A model generated the notes under the pieces. The model saw nothing but the letters and a program-made list of their open reading frames with translations. It had not been told where the DNA came from and did no database searches. From assembly GCA_910890315.1 (NCBI GenBank), contig CAJVGD010000014.1, positions 868,001 to 932,000 of the forward strand: a stretch of DNA of 64,000 bases. The letters are read 5' to 3'. Every line of letters begins with the position of its first letter. Position 1 is the stretch's first letter. The stretch comes from Serendipita indica DSM 11827. Its lineage: Eukaryota; Basidiomycota; Agaricomycetes; Sebacinales; Serendipitaceae. The translations under genes were made by a program, and so were the position numbers. Shown piece by piece: positions 51,690-64,000 of this stretch.

Positions 51690-54089
51690 TCACTCAGTCT
51701 TGATCCATTTCTCGAGCTCTGCCTTTCCATCCTCTTGCCAGAGCAAGCCATCCGCACTAACTTCGCGCTTTTCTCGTTGACCCGAGGAGCTTAGCGTACT
51801 CGTTGCGTTTTGGAGGTACTTTTGCTTGACTATGCGTTCCTTCTGCTCTCCCTCCTTTGCTTCAGGGCATCCTTTCCACAACGCACGCTCCAGAATGTGT
51901 CTGGTAACAGCACGAAGAATGATGTAGCCATGTGAAGCGGAGAGAGCAATCAAAATGGCAGGCACGATAGATGTCTCGAGTGTTTCAAGTGGACCCCCAG
52001 AAGACACAGTGTGGTGCTGATGAAAGATGGAATGGAAGAATCCTTTGGACTCCGAGGGCCGGAAGAGGTACACCAGGGCACTGTTAATGAGAGCTGCAAG
52101 CCACGCAATGAAGCTCTAAGGAAACATTAGCACAGAATTGACACAACAATGGCAGCGCACCAAGTTCTCTAGCCACGGACCAATCGTATCAACGCGAGTT
52201 GGGACGGGCCGGCGAGTGTGTGTCGTCATTTTGAATGCGTCTGAACGAAGCTCAAGCCAATCGTTGATGAGAGCCATGGCTGGTGCGAGCGGCCAAATCG
52301 TCGAGTAGAGAGCAACATAACCAAACTAAAGGATCGTCAGAAATATCAAATTGATGTCGAGTATACGTACTTGGGTCACCATCTCGGAATAGTCGACTGC
52401 AATCGTCAGCATAGTCTATCTAAAAAGATTATCGACTGACCGAAAATGGAATATTCAGGTAACGAGGCTTGGTACTTGATATCGCTGATAAACTGTTTTT
52501 CACCGGTCGGGTCGTCCTTCTCAGCTTTTGGAGTTCCCATATGGAGGCCTTTTCCATTCCGAGCGTTGCTAACTCCACGGGTGATGAATGGAAGCACAAC
52601 TTCGATGAATGAGTTGATAATCTGGTTGGTAACAGTGTAGGCGAACATCTGGTTCTGTAGGCGAGAAGCATTAAGCTTGCCTGAGATATGTTCCGCCGTT
52701 TGCGCCGAAGCCGGAGCCAGTTTGGACGCTTTGTCGTGTATTTTTGCGTCCGCCTTGTTATCGTCTGGCTTCGTGCTTTCCGCAAAGATCATCGTATGAA
52801 CCAGAGTCATCAGATACTCGCCGAATGGAACATAGACGAATGCACTGAGGGAGAGACCGAGGTATGCAACAATTGAGGAAAGTGCAAAGGTTTTGATCGT
52901 CAGGCTGGCATCATGTGAGGATTGGTGGGCGTGGTTTTCCCAATCGGCTATAACGGCTGTCAAGACATTGACTCGTGGGAAGCAAGTACACTTACTCAAC
53001 GCAACGGCGAATTTTTGATAGACGGCAAGGAATTGTGGAACCAGAGCTGCAAACAGGATCGTCGGAACCAATGATGCATACTGGTGACCGGGTCCAGTAT
53101 AAAGCTGGGTCACGAATGCTTCGAGGATAAAGATTCCCGTGAGGAGAACGGCAAGCATGACCGCAGCGGTTCCGATGACGGGGAGTGAGGTGAGAACCCT
53201 AAACTCACGCTTCCACCAAGGGAAGCTTTCATCTTCGTCATTCCCCGTAGATTTTACTGGCTTGAATTCGACACGACGCTTCTCGACACGAGCCGCCCCG
53301 CGCGTTCCCCAACGGACGCTGAGCTTGCGCTCGCGAATACGCCACCACTCGACAAACAAGACCGACCAAAGGACGATCAGAATGGAGTAGATTGGGCTAT
53401 ATGGCTTCTCAAACTTCCAAAAGGTGACTCCGATGAGCGCTGGGAAGACGAGGGCCTGGGAGTAGGAGGAGAGAAAGGCATAGTAGAGCGCGACGGATTC
53501 TCCAAACTGATTTTTGACAACGTCAAGTTCGGAGGCTTTCATCGTGAAGCCCAGTTGACGTTTCGTCCAGCTGTCAAGCCATGTATGGTTGAAGGTCCTG
53601 TCATGAAGAGCGAACACGCTCTGGACGCTTGGCCACTTGTCCTTGTTACCGGAGGTAATACCCAGGCCTCCTTGACTAGTCGCAGAGGTCACGTACGTGT
53701 GCACGAGGCGAACGCGGTCTGCTGGACTGAGGGGTGAGGCTGCAAAATCGCGTTCTTCGCCATGATAGGCGTTTGTAAGAAGTCCGTGAAGAAAGTCTGT
53801 GTGTCTACCGAGCACCGTCAGACGAAGTTGCCGTCTTGAAACATCATGACGCTCACCGTTCGGTTTCGATGAGTTCTCTAAGTTTATCCCAGGGACACGA
53901 GACAACGATGAGAATCTCTCGATTTGTGCTGCCTTGCTTTCCGGCAGCTAGGAGACCTGCGTTATGCAGCGTGTTCAGGAGCTCATTATATTCGTTGAGC
54001 GCGCTCTGGGCCTTGTTGCGCTTGTCATCCTTTGACTTTGAGGCCGTTGTGGCCACAAACTGGATCACCAAGTCGGCCTTTTGAGACAT
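51690..54089 (-). CDS. IST2: Anoctamin (TMEM16) family protein, Ist2-like
   Basis: Multi-span membrane protein; fungal members act as lipid scramblases or ER-plasma-membrane tethers (Ist2). ATG 54089: MSQKADLVIQFVATTASKSK, a small ferredoxin-like cytoplasmic domain, then VLGRHTDFLHGLLTNAYHGE. The anoctamin core begins QFGESVALYYAFLSSYSQAL, FPALIGVTFWKFEKPYSPIY and SILIVLWSVLFVEWWRIRER, the hallmark loop; then VNVLTAVIADWENHAH, ALSSIVAYLGLSLSAFVYVP, and after introns YSEMVTQFGYVALYSTIWPL, a conserved scramblase motif region. The C-terminus is a charged helix ending in WIKTE. At about 760 residues it is shorter than yeast Ist2 and lacks its long basic tail. Confidence 0.9.
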
Positions 54090-54260: not shown

Positions 54261-57200
54261 TTACGTTCCCCTATACAGCTGCTGCTGCTGTTGGGAGCGT
54301 GGGGAAGGGTGAGTCGGGTATGGCGTCGCTTGGTTATGCGCGTCTATAGGCCCAGCGGACGCAGGATGGAATGAGCCACCAGGAGACGTCGCTCCGTACA
54401 TTGGTCGATAGCCACCAGGAGGAGATGTCGAGTCTGTACGACTCGGTTCCATGATTTGGGGACCATGTGCACTCCATGGCCCAGTCACTCCAGCTGGCGG
54501 GTGTTGTGCCCATGACGGCGCACCCGAGGTGCCTTGAGATGACGATCCGGGCTGACTACCTGCCGACGATGGCCGTTTACTGTGAAGGTGCTCCTGCGCA
54601 TAGGTTGGAAGCGTGTTCTGCAGTTGAGGGTGTTGCGAAACTGTGCCGACGCCGGCCATGGATATCCGCTTGGACTTGGGAGATGCGCTGAGCTGACCAG
54701 TAGGTGACTTTGGGCTCAGCTGCTGATTAGCGGGATTCATCGGTTGGCTCGACTGGTCAAATGTCGCAGTGTGGATACTCTGCTGACGAACTTGAGGGTT
54801 TTCTGACGCTGGCGACCCAGCCGGAGCTTCCTTCATGCCAGGCACGCTGATGAAATAGACCAGTCCTTGCTTGTCATCTCCACCGGCAGCATAATATTGA
54901 GCCCACGCCTGCGCATTAGGATCGGGATATTGTGCAGTGGGGTCGAATGGATAGGGTGGCGGACCAGAGAAGACCTTGGGTCCCTCTGCGACCGGTTGCG
55001 TCTCTGGCTGTGAAGGCTGGGTTGGTTGAACTTGCTGAACTGGCTGCGTCACTTGTTGTTCGGGCTGAGGAGACATTGTTGTCGGTTGCGGCTGGGCAGC
55101 TGTGGTGGACTGTCCCGCATATTGAGCAGTCACTGCTGCTGCCGCCGGAAGCTGCTGGTTTGGGACATGTGCGTTCAGATCGTAAGCGGGTTGTGACGGC
55201 TGTCCAATAGGTTGAACTCCTGGTTGAGTTTGGGCATAGGCATTCGCACTGGGGTCATATGGCTGTTGAACGGGCTGACCTCCGGATGGTTGAGGTTGTT
55301 GCGGTGGCTGTTGGCCGTATACATTTGGATCATACCCGCCAGGTGCGGGCTGCGGAGCTCCTGGTTGCTGGGTCGCCGTCTGATACGTATTTGGATCATA
55401 ACCCGGCTGCTGTTGTGGTTGTCCTGGTTGAATCTGCGGCTGTTGAATCGGAGCAGCGTAAGCGCTTGGATCGTAGCCTGCAGGTGCCTGTTGCGGGCCG
55501 TATGCATTGGGATCCTGTCCCGGGAACCCTTGCTGAGGAGGATACGCTGCTGGATCCATCTGAGGTGGGTAGAGTTGAGGAGGATAAGTCGCTTGCGTTG
55601 GGTCCTGATATGGTGGTTGCCCAGGGTAGAACCCTGGTTGCCCTGGTGGTTGCGGCGGCGGGAAAGGTCCTGGCCAGTAGCCCGTTGCACGATAATCGAC
55701 GCCTGGAGGACCAGGCCGTCCAGAGGGATGTCGTCGAAAGTCATAGGCTGTGATATGCAGTCAGAATGAGCCGGACCAATGACCTTGGTACCAACCATTG
55801 GGGTTATGTTTCGCAAGGGACTCTTCCATCATCCGGTCAAAGAGTTCCTTTGCGTTGACAAAGTTGTCGTTCATCATTGCGAGTTCAACTTCAAATTGTA
55901 AGCATTGACTCATTCGTGTGGCAATGACATACCCTTCTTCTGATTATATTTCTCGATCAACCGAATCACCTTTGGTCGCACACTCAAGCTAGACCGGTAT
56001 AATTCCTTCATACTAGTTAGTAGTGCCAGATATGAGTGGCAACGGATTACCTGGATATCCTCATCGTCTGCGAGGTTGTCCTTTGTAATGTCAAAGTTCT
56101 TGAGTCGGTTGAGTAGCTTGTCAATATTGGCGGCTTGAGCAAAGACAGCTGCCTCTGCCTCTGCTTCCCGAGCGAGATCCGCGGCGGTTGGTTCTGGCAT
56201 TGGTTCCTATTGATTGTCGGATTCGGCGCAGCAATATGCCAACGGTACGTACTACATAGTTGACGGGGAATATTCCGGTCCTTCCTTTGAGTTGTCCCTT
56301 CCACCAGTCTTTGTGGGTCCGATCAACAACCTTTATCACATCGCCTTTCTCAAATGCCAACTCTCCTGCATCCGCTGGCTCAAAGTGGTGTAGTGCTCGA
56401 ACCCTTGTCGCCGTAGCCAGATCTGGTACGGGAGCCGGAGTGACCGATGCAGCTGGCGCAGCGACGGTGACGGCGGGCTGTGGCGGAGGAGTGGCGACCG
56501 CTGCGGGCGCATATGCCGAATAGGCTGACTGAGACGGCTGGGTGGGTTGAGATGTTTCAACTGGTGTAGCTTGTGTATCGGCGTGTCGCAAGGGAGACTG
56601 ATGAACAACGTCGACTGCCTTTCGGCCTGCAGAAGCCGTATAGCCCCCGGTCGGCTGTTGAGGTTCGGGTTTAGCCTGCGGTCTGGATGAAGGCCCCCCT
56701 GATATAGCCGTAGAGCTCGGGTAGCTCGAGCTTGATCCTCCAGCTGCGGAAGAAGGGGTGTAAACACCCCATTGCCGGCCTCCCTTATCTTGCATAGACA
56801 GTTCCAGCACCTTTTGTAGCTCTTCTTCTTCTCTACGGCGTATCTCCTCGTCAACCTGTGGCGGAGGAGCCTCCATCGCCTGCTCGAATTTGTAATCTAT
56901 TGGATCGTCAGTGCCTGTTGGAATGAGGTAGTCAAGGAGACTTGCTCTTCGACTTGAGGGACTCATAGCACTCGTTCATGATCCCCAATGACGGATCCTT
57001 TTCCCACTCCTGGGCCCAACTCTGGATCATCGACAGCGCCTTCTTCTTGACCTTGTCATGGCCAGTCTAGAGCCAATGATGAGTTCTTGTTTCATATCCT
57101 GGGACAGTAGTTACCCTGTCCGTAACAAGTTTCTCCAACCCTTGTGTAAATGCGCGACTGGCAAGCTCTCGATGGACCTCGATACCACAGTTCTTCGAGA

Positions 57201-57613: not shown

Positions 57614-58195
57614 ATGGCAAGGGGTAAGAACTGCGGCTCAAAAGCCGCTATATCTGGCACTGGATGCTCATATCGTTGCAGTTCCTAGAAACTTCAAGCT
57701 GCTCGAGGAGCTTGAGAAGGGCGAGAAAGGCATTGGCGATGGATCGTGCTCATACGGTCTCGAAGACGCCGAAGACGTCCTCATGACACATTGGAACGGC
57801 ACAATAATCGGTCCAGGACACGTATGTCTACTCGCCGCTCTCCTCGATCTTGTGTGCCACACTGACGCCGGCCTCGTGTAGACTGTGCACGAGAACAGGA
57901 TCTACAGTCTGAAGATTGAATGTGGAGATCAATATCCGGATGCTCCTCCAGTCGTCGAGTTCATCTCCCGTGTCAACGTGCCGTTTGTCAACCAGACGAA
58001 CGGCAGGGTTGATCCGACGCGACTTGGTGTTCTGGCAAACTGGAATAGAAATTATAGTCTGGAGACTCTTTTAGTGGAGATTAGAAGGTGGGCTCGTCGG
58101 CATGATTTCAAGCGTCGGTCTGACTTTCCTCTAGAGAACTCGCCTCGGCTCAGAACAGGAAGCTTCCCCAACCGCCAGAGGGCTCTGTGTTCTAG
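57614..58195 (+). CDS. MMS2: Ubiquitin-conjugating enzyme variant Mms2
   Basis: Catalytically inactive UEV that pairs with Ubc13 to build K63-linked ubiquitin chains in DNA-damage tolerance. Exon 1 is 10 nt (57614-57623), followed by a 58-nt intron (57624-57681); joined start [20 protein letters not shown]. Then [28 protein letters not shown], and after an intron [40 protein letters not shown]. As expected for a UEV there is no active-site Cys. The last exon reads [19 protein letters not shown], stop at 58193-58195. About 140 residues. Confidence 0.95.
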
Positions 58196-58493
58196 ATGCC
58201 GAGTACTTTACGACATTGTCTCGTAACGTTAAGAATTGGACCTAAATCTTCTATCATAGACTTGGCCCGGGAAATTGACCTTGCACCAAAGTGAGAAGAG
58301 TACGCCGCCCATATATCGGCCGCGAGGGATATTATAGTATGAAACGCGTGGGCAACGCGTCTCAGGCGTGTTTAACCTGACAATCGATTTGCTGCGCCTG
58401 ACCTCGCCCTTTCAGATCCAGCGGAGCCTGGCTTAAAGCGACACATTTTCGTGGATTTATAAGATTCTAGACCTGACCCTCTCACCGAGTTCC

Positions 58494-59445
58494 ATGTCCG
58501 ACCACGAATCTCTGGTTTTACCACCATCGGTGGAAGATCTCATTGAGATATTCATTCTGCAAGAGCAAGATGCCTTCACCAGTACGCCGAATTCTGTCTA
58601 TGAGCTGAATTTATATTTCGGTTTCAGGCGTTCTGCCCAAAAGCACTCGCCACCTGGTCAGGCGCCTTATTATGAACAGAGCCATAGAGAAAAGCAGGCA
58701 TCCTCTTATATTCCCAGATCAATGCTAATTTTCTGCAGCTCGAGAGCACGACGAGTTCTACGTGGAGGATCAGAATATGGACCTCTTTGACACCGAGCAG
58801 GCTGTGCGGTTCTTTTCATACAGTCCGTGAACCTGAAAAGGTATTCTATTACTCATTATGGACTAGTCTCGTGGTACGATCCCATCTGGACCCGCAACTT
58901 TCTCAGTCTATCCATTCCGCTGTTCGTGGCAGCTGGTATGATGCTTCTTTAATGCTGCACATATGATAACTGAATGTCATCCAGCACAAGCGTTCACGGA
59001 CGCGAAGCTCCTCCAAAGAGTAAAGGACGAATGGACTCAGAACGATAGCGACATCATCCATGATCTGGCCTCTGGAGCCACTGGCTTGCTCGCTACGAGT
59101 CTTTCGCTGAGGGACGTACAGCTCAGAAGCTATGAAGCCAGTAAGCAAGGTCAACGTTGCGAAATGTATGCTAATGGTTGTTGAGGGAACTTTGTGGAAC
59201 AATGGCAAAGTGGACTGGATGGCATCTCAATCGGCAGTGTCTATCCAATTCTTTCAATGCACGGTCCCTTGGGCCCAGCTCCCGCAATCGGCGTTGCATT
59301 GCTCTCTGGTTTTGCGGCCATGAGCTATCTGCTCTACAAGATGATCACAATTTCGAACACGGAGGATAAGATCAAAGCGTTGTTCCAAGAGTTGGCCAAC
59401 GACGAAGATGCGCGCGCGAGTTTCTGGTCTGTTCTTGATGATTGA
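58494..59445 (+). CDS. ISG12-like tandem paralogue A (divergent copy)
   Basis: First of three tandem paralogues. ATG 58494: MSDHESLVLPPSVEDLIEIF, then VLPKSTRHLVRRLIMNRAIE after a 46-nt intron (58582-58627). The next intron (58694-58738) starts with GC and leads to a segment ending LFDTEQAVRFFSY. A shared module follows, SWYDPIWTRNFLSLSIPLFV, then a charged stretch (LLQRVKDEWTQNDSDIIHDL) and a hydrophobic segment, GATGLLATSLSLRD. The core IFI6/27-like stretch is degenerate (FVEQWQSGLDGISIGSVYPI, LSMHGPLGPAPAIGVALLSG), aligning to B by the WQS and GPL positions. The C-terminal tail KIKALFQELANDEDARASFW matches B and C. About 240 residues in six exons. Function unknown; probably membrane-associated. 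Confidence 0.72.
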
Positions 59446-59922
59446 TCCTAGAAGAAGCCATCTGGAAAGTAGAAAGAGAACAATAGATGTTCCTGATCTC
59501 CTTCTTTTTCTGACGCCTAGCCAATCTCAAGCATTGCTTGCTGGCTCTCTCCAACGGCCGCTCACAGCATGTCCCCTTTTCTGCTATTGAGCTCCACCAT
59601 CCTACCAACCATCATCAATACAATCCAGCCACAGAGAATGTCCACGACATAGGATTCACTTCTGTGAGCATATCACGTTGTCAGGCTCTCATTCAAAGCG
59701 CCATCACACGACCATAGTGAATACTGGAGTTGGTATTCCATCGCAATGGTCAGTTGACTCGTATTTCAATTTGCCACAACTGCGGCGCCTGCTTTGGTAT
59801 TGGCCCGATTCTATGCAACTCGAATCTCTCCATGCGTGATAGGGGAGCTTTCAGAGATCCGGAATTCGCCGGTTCAGTATAAAGACAGGAAGCTCAGGAG
59901 GGGTTGGAAACAAGATTCTCAA
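59446..59922. other. Spacer between paralogues A and B
   Basis: A 477-bp spacer between the stop of copy A and the ATG of copy B. No supported gene; presumably the terminator of A and promoter of B. It has no obvious similarity by eye to the next spacer. Confidence 0.4.
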
Positions 59923-61013
59923 ATGGTCTCCATCCAACCAGCTTCCAGCGAAGGGCATGCACCCCAGGGTGAACCTCTTGATCTACAGCCCCCACAAGCA
60001 AATCTCCCCGCAGTCCAGATTGGGTCGCCCCTACAGGTGGCTGCTCCCGCTCAGGAAGAGGACGAAGTAATTGTCAACCTCGTGGAAGACTTTATCCGGC
60101 GTGAAAGTAGCATCATGCAAGGTATTACAACCCAATAGCCTTCATAATCTAGCCTATTCATTTCTAGGTCCTCTCGGTGCTCATCTAAAGCGTTCGCTAG
60201 TCCAGAAGGTGCTCAAGCAGCGAGCTGTTTCTCAATGTATGTCTCTTATTTGCCCATTTTCATTACTCATTTGTTTCAGTTGTCCGCATAGTGCCCTTGG
60301 CAGAACGAACCCGTGTTTCACACAGGATTTTCAACCGCAGCGATGCATTGACCTTCTTCAGCCTTAGTAAGCTCTTACCTGTCCTGATGCCGCTGCTCAT
60401 TATGCTAGCTGCCCGATACGATCGTAACTGGACTATCTCCTTCTTGATTCAGGCGTTCACTCTTATCTCAACAACTGGTAAGATCAAATGGCGCGACAGC
60501 AGAAAGCAAATGCTGACATTTTTACAACCTGAAGCGCAGGCGATCCTGAGAAAGGACAGCATTGATAGATCTATTGATAGCTGGAAAGCGAAGGATACTG
60601 CATTTGGTGCTGCCGCTGGAGCACTCGGTGGGGCTGCTTCCTTGTTGGCAGGAGAAGCGCTTGCATTTGCAGGCTTCACTGTGACCGGTGTGGCATCAGG
60701 TATGCTCTGACCTCTCAGTTGCTGGGAATTAAGCTTCTCTGAACTATGCACAGGTAGTATGGCCGCGCTATGGCAAAGCGCAATTGGTAACGTCGCTGCC
60801 AATAGCCTTTTTGCGACCTGCCAGAGTCTTGGTGCGACAGCTGCACTCAGCGGGCCCCTCGCATGGGGTGCGTGTGGCGGGGCGGTTCTAGGATATGTAA
60901 CGTACAAAGCCGTGACAGCCCCAACATCCGATCAAGTCTTAGAGAAGCTTCTCGACGATGTCTACAATGATGAGAAGAAACGAGAAATGTTCTGGAACAG
61001 GATTAATGTTTGA
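59923..61013 (+). CDS. ISG12-like tandem paralogue B
   Basis: Second paralogue. ATG 59923: MVSIQPASSEGHAPQGEPLD, a Pro/Gln-rich leader, then VIVNLVEDFIRRESSIMQ (compare VEDLIEIFILQEQDAF in A), an intron, and GPLGAHLKRSLVQKVLKQRA. Further exons give VPLAERTRVSHRIF, SDALTFFSL, then the shared module ARYDRNWTISFLIQAFTLIS. After TTGKIKWRDSRKQMLTFLQP comes the glycine/alanine-rich membrane-prone part: AAGALGGAASLLAGEALAFA, GFTVTGVAS, then across an intron MAALWQSAIGNVAANSLFAT and CQSLGATAALSGPLAWGACG. The last two blocks match the ISG12/IFI27 core (animal GFTAAGIAS and GSLVATLQSLGATG). Tail: VLEKLLDDVYNDEKKREMFW, stop at 61013. About 290 residues. Confidence 0.8.
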
Positions 61014-61355
61014 CTCGTTCTCGTTGTTGGATGTACGCACGTGTGGGTCTACATGTTGCTTGATGCTACGTCTTGGTTTTTTACTTTCGGAAGGCTGTAT
61101 TCATTCCGTTACTGTGTCCCGCGATAATCAAGACAATAGCTCAGAGTTATTCAACCATGTCAGGAACAAGCCATTGGAACAGGAATAAATGTTCACTGAG
61201 ATATAAAGCATTATTTATACCGGAACAGATGAAGAACGTCTATCAGAACCTCTGGGTAATAAGGCAAGGCGGGATTCTGGATGCACATGCATTCTGGGAC
61301 TGTAGCGAAGTTTCGAACGGGCCACTCCTTTCAAATGGGTATAATATTCCCATAA
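61014..61355. other. Spacer between paralogues B and C
   Basis: A 342-bp AT-richer spacer between the stop of copy B and the tentative ATG of copy C. No gene seen. Confidence 0.35.
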
Positions 61356-62405
61356 ATGTATATTCATGATGCCCTTATTATCCAGCAACATGAAATTGAA
61401 GGGACATTCGCCTCTGTTGTCGTCAGGTTGAGAGGCTGGGCAAGCCACAGACTTGATCCCAGCGACAATGGGACATCGTTCAGGCGTCACAAAGTTTGTG
61501 AAGCAAGCTCGAGTCCTCTTGAATAGTACGAATGTAACGAACAGAGGGTCAACTACTCATTGTCCCTCCAGCGCCCACCCTTCGACCGCGGATTCGCGAT
61601 AGCCTCGGAGTCACATTACGACAAAGAGGGAATGAAAGGGGTAACTATTGGTATATTCGGCCTATATACGTGTCTTGACGGTAAAGCAGTTGATGGTATC
61701 GTTCCACCCGCGCTCAGAGTGAACCTGAACTGTAATATCTTTGAAACACCTGACGCACAAGAGTTTTTCTACCTCGGTAATAGAGTTATCGAAGATTTTT
61801 CATCGACTCAGTTGATTATATAGCCAGAGAGTGCGATGCGGCTTGGACTCGCGCATTCTTGGATCAGTCAGTACGATTTCTCGCTGAACACAGTAAGTAT
61901 ATGTCTTCAATTCATCGCAACATACTTAATATTCGAAAGCAAAGGTGCTTTTGGGCCAAACGCGCGTCGAAGCCTTGCGTCATGACTGGAGTAGAAAAGA
62001 TACTCTGCGATCTCTAGCAGCGGGTACGGCACCACTTTTGGCGAAATCTACCTTAACTTTAGCCGGGTTCACAGGGGAGGGGGTCGCTGCAGGTATAAAT
62101 TTGTTTCTATCACTTATACCGCTCAATGTCACGTTATAGCGAGTGTAGCTGCTGGATGGCAGAGTATGTTGGGAAACGTTGCGGCGGGAAGTATCTTTTC
62201 AGTTTTGCAGAGTTTCGGAGCCACAGGGCTGCTAGCTATTACAGCGCCGGTGGGTGTGACCGTAGCTGGAGCGGGAGCTCTTGGCTATGGAGCCTGGAGA
62301 TTCTTAAAGATGCCCGTTGGAGAAAAACGGCTCGAGGCGTTTCTAAAGGAAATTTCGGAAGACAAAGACAAGCGTGATAGATTTTGGTCCCAAATTGACG
62401 CCTAG
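61356..62405 (+). CDS. ISG12-like tandem paralogue C
   Basis: Third paralogue. The tentative ATG 61356 gives MYIHDALIIQQHEIEGTFAS; an intron at about 61494-61571 joins RPPFDRGFAIASESHYDKEG. Then IVPPALRVNLNCNIFETPDA and QEFFYL, joined to ARECDAAWTRAFLDQSVRFL, the shared module. After VLLGQTRVEALRHDWSRKD comes the core: LAAGTAPLLAKSTLTLAGFT, GEGVAA, then SVAAGWQSMLGNVAAGSIFS and VLQSFGATGLLAITAPVGVT. GFTGEGVAA and VAAGSIFSVLQSFGATG are the closest matches in the array to the animal ISG12 signature. Tail: KRLEAFLKEISEDKDKRDRF, stop at 62403-62405. The 5' part is the least certain. Confidence 0.78.
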
Positions 62406-62525: not shown

Positions 62526-64000
62526 ATGACCCTTGTAAATAATCAGGAAAATGCCTCAAGTCCGATAATGTCCAGTAAACTAAACCATACGACCGGCATC
62601 CCGTTCAGAGCTAGACTCGACCTGCTGCCAGCGTCTGTAGAGGAGCTGCCACTCAATGAAGGAGACATTGTAGAAGTTCTCGATCGAGGGGAGTTTTGGT
62701 GGATAGCCATAGCCAAGGGTAAGCTACTCAATCCCCAGCGCACTCGGCGCCTCGCACGTCTTTCCGATTCCTGACAAATTCGCCCAAAGGCAAGCGAGGT
62801 CTTGTTCTACCTGAAGCACTTGTGCGTTTCCTGTTCATTATGAGCCAGATACCCTTCCTGAACAATGGTCTAGGAGCCAATCTCGGGATCGATAGAGGCG
62901 CCTCAGCTACAAGAAGACGCTATCATAGATGACCGCATCCATGAAGCACTTCCTGAAATCACAATTGAGACATCTCAATCAGACACTGGCGCATCGTCAG
63001 ATTGCGCATCCCTTCCATTATCCCTTCGAACTAGAGTCGACCGACCCACTCTTCCTCGGCTCATTTCCCCCCTATTCGAATCTTCCACTGATAGCCCTTC
63101 TCTCCCCAGCGCATCGTCTAGTAGCACTGTGCGTCCTCATCCTCAACATATGACTTATCGAATTTGACAGTCTCCTCAGAATAACGCATGTTCACCAACT
63201 GGATCGCCAATTTCACCCGACGCTTCTCCATTAACAGATGGCATCAAAGTACTCCCGACACGAGTTCGCGCTTTATCAGACGTAACAGGCACCACGCCCG
63301 GAGAGCTTTCGTTCAAAGCTGGCGACATTATTGACGTCGACGTTCGGACTTCCGCCGAGATATGGCATGGAATACTCGGACAGCAGACGGGCACCTTCCG
63401 TCTCGACGACTCTGTCGTAAGTCTCCACATGCTTCACGTCCCAGCGCCGACTAATTGATATTAGGAACCAATACTTAAAGAGCGGGTTAGGGCACTACTG
63501 GACCACACTGCAGCCTCCTCCGGAGATTTATCGTTCAAAGCCGGTGATATTATCCAGGTCTACGGTCCAAGTACTCAGGGTACATGGTGGTGGCATGGTT
63601 TCATTACCGGAAAGGGGATAGGGATGTTTCCTTTCAACTTTGTTGAGCCCCTGGACGATGAGTTTGATGATTCAGACGAAGTCGACCCCGTCACCGCGTC
63701 TCTCTACAAACCACACACAAAGTTTCGGGTACTGCATGACGTTCCATCTATAGAAGATGGAATGTTGTCACTCAAGCAAGGGGACGTGATTTCCCTCGTT
63801 TCTCGACCATTTCATGATAAGTGGGAGGGGCGCTTGCGGTCTCAGGCAGGGACATTCTTCTTAGATGACAACATTGTACGCGATGCGATAAGGCATGGTT
63901 ATTCTTATCTGACTATCCGACAGGAGCCCATTATTACGAGCCGGGTTTGCGCCATCTACGACTACAAGGCTCAAAATGAGGGAGAGCTGACCTTCGCTCG
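62526..64000 (+). CDS. Multi-SH3 domain protein, partial at right edge
   Basis: Probable scaffold with at least five SH3-like domains, cut by the window end. ATG 62526 (or 62568, MSSKLNHTTG). SH3-1: FRARLDLLPASVEELPLNEG, DIVEVLD ... WW ... RGLVLPEAL. An acidic Ser-rich linker follows. SH3-2: TRVRALSDVTGTTPGELSFK, AGDIIDV ... IWHGILGQQTGTF. SH3-3: ERVRALLDHTAASSGDLSFK, AGDIIQV ... TWWWHGFI ... GMFPFNFVEP, the most canonical. SH3-4: KFRVLHDVPSIEDGMLSLKQ, GDVISLV ... WEGRL. SH3-5 begins SRVCAIYDYKAQNEGELTFA and is truncated. Domains 2 and 3 are the most alike, suggesting recent internal duplication. It starts 120 bp after paralogue C on the same strand. Function unknown. Confidence 0.8.

Follow-up and report, generated by a model that had tools for sequence, protein, structure and literature searches.

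Does a fungus carry a tandem array of genes of the animal ISG12 (IFI6/IFI27) family, and what could such proteins do outside interferon biology? The question is raised by a stretch of 64,000 nucleotides from the root endophyte Serendipita indica DSM 11827, formerly Piriformospora indica (contig CAJVGD010000014.1, positions 868,001 to 932,000), hereafter called the window, in which positions 58494 to 62405 hold three consecutive genes on the forward strand, here named A, B and C. To our knowledge, fungi have no interferon system. A sequence-only reading of this DNA had taken all three genes to be ISG12-like, with a Gly/Ala-rich hydrophobic core placed between additional N- and C-terminal parts. 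Our analysis indicates that the cores of B and C are almost certainly homologous to the ISG12 domain, and that A is a diverged paralogue in which the signature of this domain has been lost.

Membership of the ISG12 family

The curated Pfam cut-off of the PF06140 (Ifi-6-16) family, 29.1 bits, was treated as the membership criterion. In a search of the spliced proteins against Pfam-A, C scored 45.3 bits and B 31.1 bits, both above the cut-off, and PF06140 is already labelled on the database forms of these two proteins in the precomputed annotation. A has no PF06140 match in the Pfam-A listing at E-values up to 10, from which the filters in HMMER may hide very weak ones. The core covers residues 171-241 in B (60621..60887, forward strand), where it is split by a phase 1 intron at 60700-60753, and residues 121-190 in C (62017..62273, forward strand), where it is split by a phase 1 intron at 62093-62139. 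These coordinates were computed by hand from the exon table. The motifs quoted for the core in the sequence-only reading are present in both sequences, and read GFTGEGVAA..NVAAGSIFSVLQSFGATG in C and GFTVTGVAS..NVAANSLFATCQSLGATA in B.

Because B is near the cut-off and the core is rich in glycine and alanine, we built a control profile from 14 proteins, none of which came from the S. indica arrays, and scored it against cores shuffled within each protein. B scored 81.5 bits, as compared with 19.6 bits for the best of 2000 shuffles, and C scored 84.5 bits, as compared with 17.7 bits. None of the 2000 shuffles was as high in either case, and the PF06140 match of B and C survives the control for composition. 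The score of A was 1.7 bits, which was reached by 64 of 1995 shuffles of its core. The best sequence match in PDB was human IFI27L1 (2loq), a weak match with an E-value of 0.046 for a profile of A, B and C and of 0.0083 for the deposited form of C, and the alignment falls on the core stretch GFT..GVAA..VAAGS...LQS.GA.GL. Since the Pfam scores exceed the cut-off, and given the shuffle control and the match to 2loq, we assign B and C to the ISG12 family. The sequence-only reading thus holds for these two genes, and for A its assignment by the core is not supported.

A six-frame, exon-by-exon scan of the genome with PF06140 recovered the C exon above the cut-off (31.4 bits) and the B exon below it (25.3 bits); the count of two exons is a lower bound because the scan missed a second array, described below. 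Matches to other Pfam families below their cut-offs were disregarded, among them DUF5691 for C (15.9 bits, E-value 0.0094), GPHR_N for A (16.3 bits, E-value 0.01) and weaker others. A tree of the cores (54 rows, 82 columns) was not used: 9 of its 49 inner branches were well supported, A was placed on a branch of length 10, and the six S. indica rows were ungrouped in this unresolved tree, with three changes needed.

Gene structure and kinship of the three copies

The introns were placed by splice consensus and homology, and each gene has six exons. A (58494..59445) has exons at 58494-58581, 58628-58693, 58739-58822, 58867-58935, 58985-59140 and 59186-59445, and encodes 240 amino acids. B (59923..61013) has exons at 59923-60121, 60168-60236, 60280-60366, 60409-60477, 60535-60699 and 60754-61013, and encodes 282 amino acids. 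C (61468..62405) has exons at 61468-61525, 61572-61640, 61690-61776, 61824-61892, 61940-62092 and 62140-62405, and encodes 233 amino acids. The limits given for the array in the sequence-only reading are correct, in that the ATG of A is located at 58494 and the stop codon of C ends at 62405. The lengths of the inner exons in A, B and C are 66, 69 and 69 bases for exon 2, 84, 87 and 87 bases for exon 3, 69 bases in each gene for exon 4, and 156, 165 and 153 bases for exon 5. All 15 introns are in phase 1, and introns 1, 3, 4 and 5 are located in the identical alignment column in all three genes. Intron 2 is placed in the same column in B and C, and is offset by 10 columns in A, beside a gapped stretch; in A this intron (58694-58738) has a GC-AG splice pair.

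The gene models were compared with deposited proteins. Spliced A is identical to the predicted protein P0002 of 240 amino acids except for one residue, and the GC-AG splicing is the same in P0002, whose source sequences (the longest of 1488 bases) are probably assembled transcripts. Spliced B is identical across all 282 residues to CCA71663.1, a deposited, uncharacterised protein of S. indica DSM 11827. The deposited protein closest to C is S. indica PIIN_05598, which has 252 amino acids and is 84% identical. It differs from our predicted model in that exon 1 is joined elsewhere, the presumed intron 2 is read through and a few residues are different. Exons 2 to 4 of the model match those of B in length. 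The read-through in PIIN_05598 (window 61526-61689) may represent either a misprediction or alternative splicing.

To quantify the similarity, local alignments of the three pairs were scored against 1000 shuffles. The full-length alignments were 28.6 (A-B), 35.7 (A-C) and 51.3 (B-C) standard deviations above the shuffles. The corresponding ranges were 9.4 to 13.6 for the N-terminal parts and 11.6 to 15.0 for the tails, and no shuffle was as high in any of these comparisons. For the cores alone, the values were 18.6 (B-C) and 13.2 (A-C), with no shuffle as high, and 5.8 for A-B, where 1 of 1000 was as high. We conclude that A, B and C are tandem duplicates of one gene, and take the duplication to be old because C is only 35% and A only 27% identical to B. 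Judged from these alignments, A is a true paralogue of B and C that has lost the core signature while retaining the N-terminal module and the tail, and it is not counted as a member of the ISG12 family. The three consecutive same-strand genes with common modules of the sequence-only reading are thereby real rather than due to chance, as seen from the shuffle-tested alignments and the conserved exon structure.

The N-terminal module and the FW tail

The motif FF(S/Y)(L/Y)-x4-D-x2-WT-x2-FL was found in A, B and C, as had been proposed for all copies. The module that contains it is encoded by exons 3 and 4, at 58739..58935 in A, 60280..60477 in B and 61690..61892 in C, all on the forward strand. 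The C-terminal tail is charged in all three proteins and has the residues FW close to its end. With coordinates computed by hand, it is located on the forward strand at 59314..59442 in A, as identified from the pairwise alignments and a tail profile, at 60879..61010 in B, where the predicted structure contains two helices and residues 261-280 have a mean predicted local distance difference test (pLDDT) value of 91, and at 62274..62402 in C, where the model of the deposited form contains helices and 20 residues have mean pLDDT values of 89-93.

Profiles of the N-terminal module and the FW tail matched just the three window proteins and the forms of them in the database. Neither part was found, at the inclusion threshold, in any of the 49 other PF06140 proteins of the core survey described below, or in the genes D1 and D2 of the second array, and no Pfam family scored above its cut-off over the N-terminal module or the tail of A, B or C. 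With the gene models and the absence of these parts from the 49 other members, the proposal that the genes form a tandem family extended at both termini is borne out.

A second array in the S. indica genome

Protein searches of the genome identified another tandem array outside the window, in which three ISG12-like genes lie on the minus strand of contig C40 at about C40:870111-872557 (within L003, G000:C40:867501-876500). D1 is a plain, hydrophobic ISG12 protein of 90 amino acids (PF06140, 33.5 bits). D2, with 244 amino acids in its scanned form (32.4 bits), is extended by a long stretch at its C terminus, and D3 is decayed and falls below the cut-off (22.0 bits). On the control profile, D1, D2 and D3 scored 61.7, 67.7 and 35.6 bits, and no shuffle was as high. 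They resemble the genes in the window in having a PF06140-type core, and in the residue and the phase at which an intron splits it, but D1 and D2 differ from them in that the N-terminal module and the FW tail are absent. The core intron in D1 and D2 is in phase 1, splits the glycine that precedes a conserved serine and falls in the alignment column that holds the core intron in A, B and C; D3 has a phase 1 intron at the matching place. The common position and phase of this intron tie both arrays, A included, to one ancestral gene.

Genome searches with A, B and C, in which the best few candidates were scored, identified nothing beyond the two arrays at E-values up to 10. A weak match to the core of D2 (E-value 0.07) at G000:C10:315686-315904 may represent a further ISG12-like gene.

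Relatives in other organisms

A homologue search with a profile of the three proteins yielded 3 proteins among 8000 scored candidates, and a search with C alone yielded 1 protein among 2790 candidates. Because both searches need shared 5-residue words, the extended architecture is not shown to be confined to S. indica. A survey of the core with protein P0003 yielded 50 proteins among 1829 candidates, including B. Their sources include three named fungi and three insect proteins, and their architectures vary. The proteins from Massarina eburnea (P0020, 58.1 bits), Tulasnella sp. (P0049, 41.2 bits) and Atractiella rhizophila (P0052, 48.2 bits) are similar to B and C in that they exceed the PF06140 cut-off, but they differ in having only 117-168 amino acids and no N-terminal module or FW tail. 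The presence of PF06140 in fungi is not new in itself, since these three fungi are represented in the survey and the database forms of B and C carry the label. Three of the 50 proteins (P0014, P0015 and P0017) have PF06140 fused to PF00191, which we take to be annexin, and a wasp protein (P0050) joins it with PF00005, presumably an ABC transporter.

One pattern scan of prokaryote genomes gave 18 pattern matches and one of viral contigs gave 164, none of which was confirmed, and no relative was identified when phage records were searched with the deposited form of C. The three database proteins have no match in NCBIfam, and their one PADLOC hit was disregarded at an E-value of 0.094. A literature search, in which broad queries were checked for the top-ranked matches only, turned up no paper that addresses the function of a fungal PF06140 protein, and no description of the extended architecture of A-C was found among the matches listed. 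The sole fungal mention in this search was a row in a table, listing Ferritin_2 with Ifi-6-16 in Thielaviopsis (PMC10051545).

Genomic surroundings

Ten single-frame open reading frames in the window were scanned against Pfam, four of which had a match. A gene with a ubiquitin-conjugating (E2-like) domain is located upstream of A (UQ_con, 35.8 bits in 57882-58223), and further upstream on the minus strand are an SH3 protein at 56124-56975 and a gene of the anoctamin (TMEM16) family at 52409-53947 (PF04547, 228.7 bits). Downstream of C, from window position 63465 onward (L004, 1465-3669), there is a long reading frame with SH3 domains, as identified by Pfam in its first 178 residues; further SH3-like stretches were seen by eye. 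None of the ten reading frames was seen to contain an NLR domain, a HET domain or a known death-effector domain.

A possible function and its alternatives

Our interpretation, to which we give a probability of about one half, is that the array arose long ago when an ISG12-type gene was triplicated in tandem, that a membrane-associated core is regulated by the surrounding parts and that A serves as a regulator. By analogy with the animal members, B and C probably associate with membranes via the core. The Gly/Ala-rich core would pack into or insert in an intracellular membrane, of the mitochondrion or the endoplasmic reticulum as reported for the animal members, and would tune a response to membrane stress or permeability. 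The N-terminal module and the tail might, tentatively, be a regulatory or partner-binding jacket, which would keep the mildly hydrophobic core soluble or direct assembly. A, which keeps the jacket without the core, would regulate B and C without inserting itself. This interpretation draws on the PF06140 core, the control profile, the match to 2loq, the exon structure, the shared core intron, the genes D1-D3, the helical predictions and the retention of the jacket in A though its core has decayed.

Several results weigh against it. The best mean Kyte-Doolittle value over 19 residues is 1.49 in the core of B (1.56 in its N-terminal module), 1.73 in C and 1.70 in A, as compared with 2.36 in D1, and the grand average of hydropathy (GRAVY) for the whole protein is -0.06 to 0.09 in A, B and C versus 1.41 in D1. 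Such values are marginal for a segment that spans a membrane, and they fall well short of those of D1. Of the Gly/Ala-rich hydrophobic core in the sequence-only reading, the composition is confirmed for B and C, and the hydrophobicity is only borderline. The net charge of the first 30 residues is +6 in C, -3 in B and -7 in A, so that the N terminus is basic in C alone and a mitochondrial targeting signal shared by the three proteins is not apparent. The AlphaFold2 models contain helices only, with mean pLDDT values of 58.3 for B (25 aligned sequences) and 55.1 for the deposited form of C (22 aligned sequences), which are too low for a helical bundle to be recognised; the values are about 39 to 60 in the core, about 69 to 78 in part of the N-terminal module and about 90 for 20 residues of the tail. 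A structural comparison of the models gave weak matches to other proteins, with no IFI27 relative among the matches listed. Within 400 bases upstream of the genes there is no stress element common to A, B and C: pentamers resembling the stress response element occur three times before B and not before A or C, which is not meaningful, and no full heat-shock element was identified, A and C each being preceded by a single half-site. Lastly, it is sequence decay that suggests the regulatory role of A, and family analogy that makes an immune or cell-death role of the array attractive.

The alternative that fares best, although we consider it doubtful, is that these are housekeeping or structural organelle proteins, in which the ISG12 core would be an ancient eukaryotic motif for packing in membranes that has no part in immunity or cell death in fungi, and lineage drift would account for the additional parts. 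It is consistent with the presence of the core in fungi, insects and many other sources with varied architectures, and with the four recognised neighbours, which resemble housekeeping genes, but arrays of three genes at two loci and the large divergence would be unexpected for a constant housekeeping gene. It is unlikely that B and C are membrane-permeabilising effectors of cell death or incompatibility, in which the N-terminal module would restrain the core until an upstream signal frees it to insert and kill, like the fungal HeLo-domain proteins. The soluble-looking jacket around a Gly/Ala-rich core would fit such a role, as would the tandem divergence and the one decayed core, expected for a fast-evolving conflict gene, and fungi are known to employ membrane-targeting effectors (PMC12881547). 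However, the scanned reading frames in the window have none of the domains of such systems, A, B and C have no Pfam match to a death-effector domain, and term look-ups for ISG12 and IFI27 gave nothing in the main texts of a review (PMC12881547) and a survey of NLR effectors (PMC9815663). The weakest alternative, that Gly/Ala-rich proteins reach the PF06140 score by chance, had in its favour the composition of the core, the margin of merely 2 bits for B and the low score of the B exon on its own, but is refuted for B and C, and not for the core of A alone, by the shuffled controls and the core intron position common to small ISG12 genes.

An extended form of our interpretation, in which the array would be a self-contained, regulated ISG12 system with B and C as jacketed effectors and the core-dead A as a brake or scaffold, controlling the integrity of mitochondrial or endoplasmic reticulum membranes in stress or non-self encounters, is improbable. 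If true, it would put ISG12-based membrane control outside interferon biology. The biochemical action of the ISG12 core is unsettled in animals, where reports on IFI6 conflict (PMC5850085). Genetic studies in animals are complicated by the regulation by interferon and the several paralogues. S. indica, which has members of both the short and the extended kind as well as a natural copy that lacks the core signature, would make the basic action of the core testable without interferon.

Comparison with animal ISG12 proteins and fungal death domains

The fungal HeLo and HELL death domains are similar to A-C only in the proposed working, as helical, membrane-seeking effectors (PMC12881547), and no Pfam match to them was found in A, B or C. 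As for the ISG12/FAM14 family, to which human IFI27, IFI6, IFI27L1 and IFI27L2 belong, the similarity lies in the core, which in B and C has the pattern GFTxxGVA..S.AA..QS.(I/L)GNVAAxS(I/L)F...QS(F/L)GAT and exceeds the PF06140 cut-off. The tandem arrangement is a further similarity, as the human members are clustered too. A, B and C differ from this family in the N-terminal module and the FW tail, which are absent from all 49 other members compared. The animal members are described as small hydrophobic proteins of about 12 kDa. D1 fits this description, and C (233 amino acids, GRAVY -0.03) and B (282 amino acids, GRAVY 0.09) do not. Antiviral effects have been described for the ISG12 family (PMC5850085). 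IFI27 has 122 amino acids, as compared with 233-282 in the proteins from the window, contains a mitochondrial targeting sequence and has been linked to mitochondrial permeability and apoptosis (PMC10175689).

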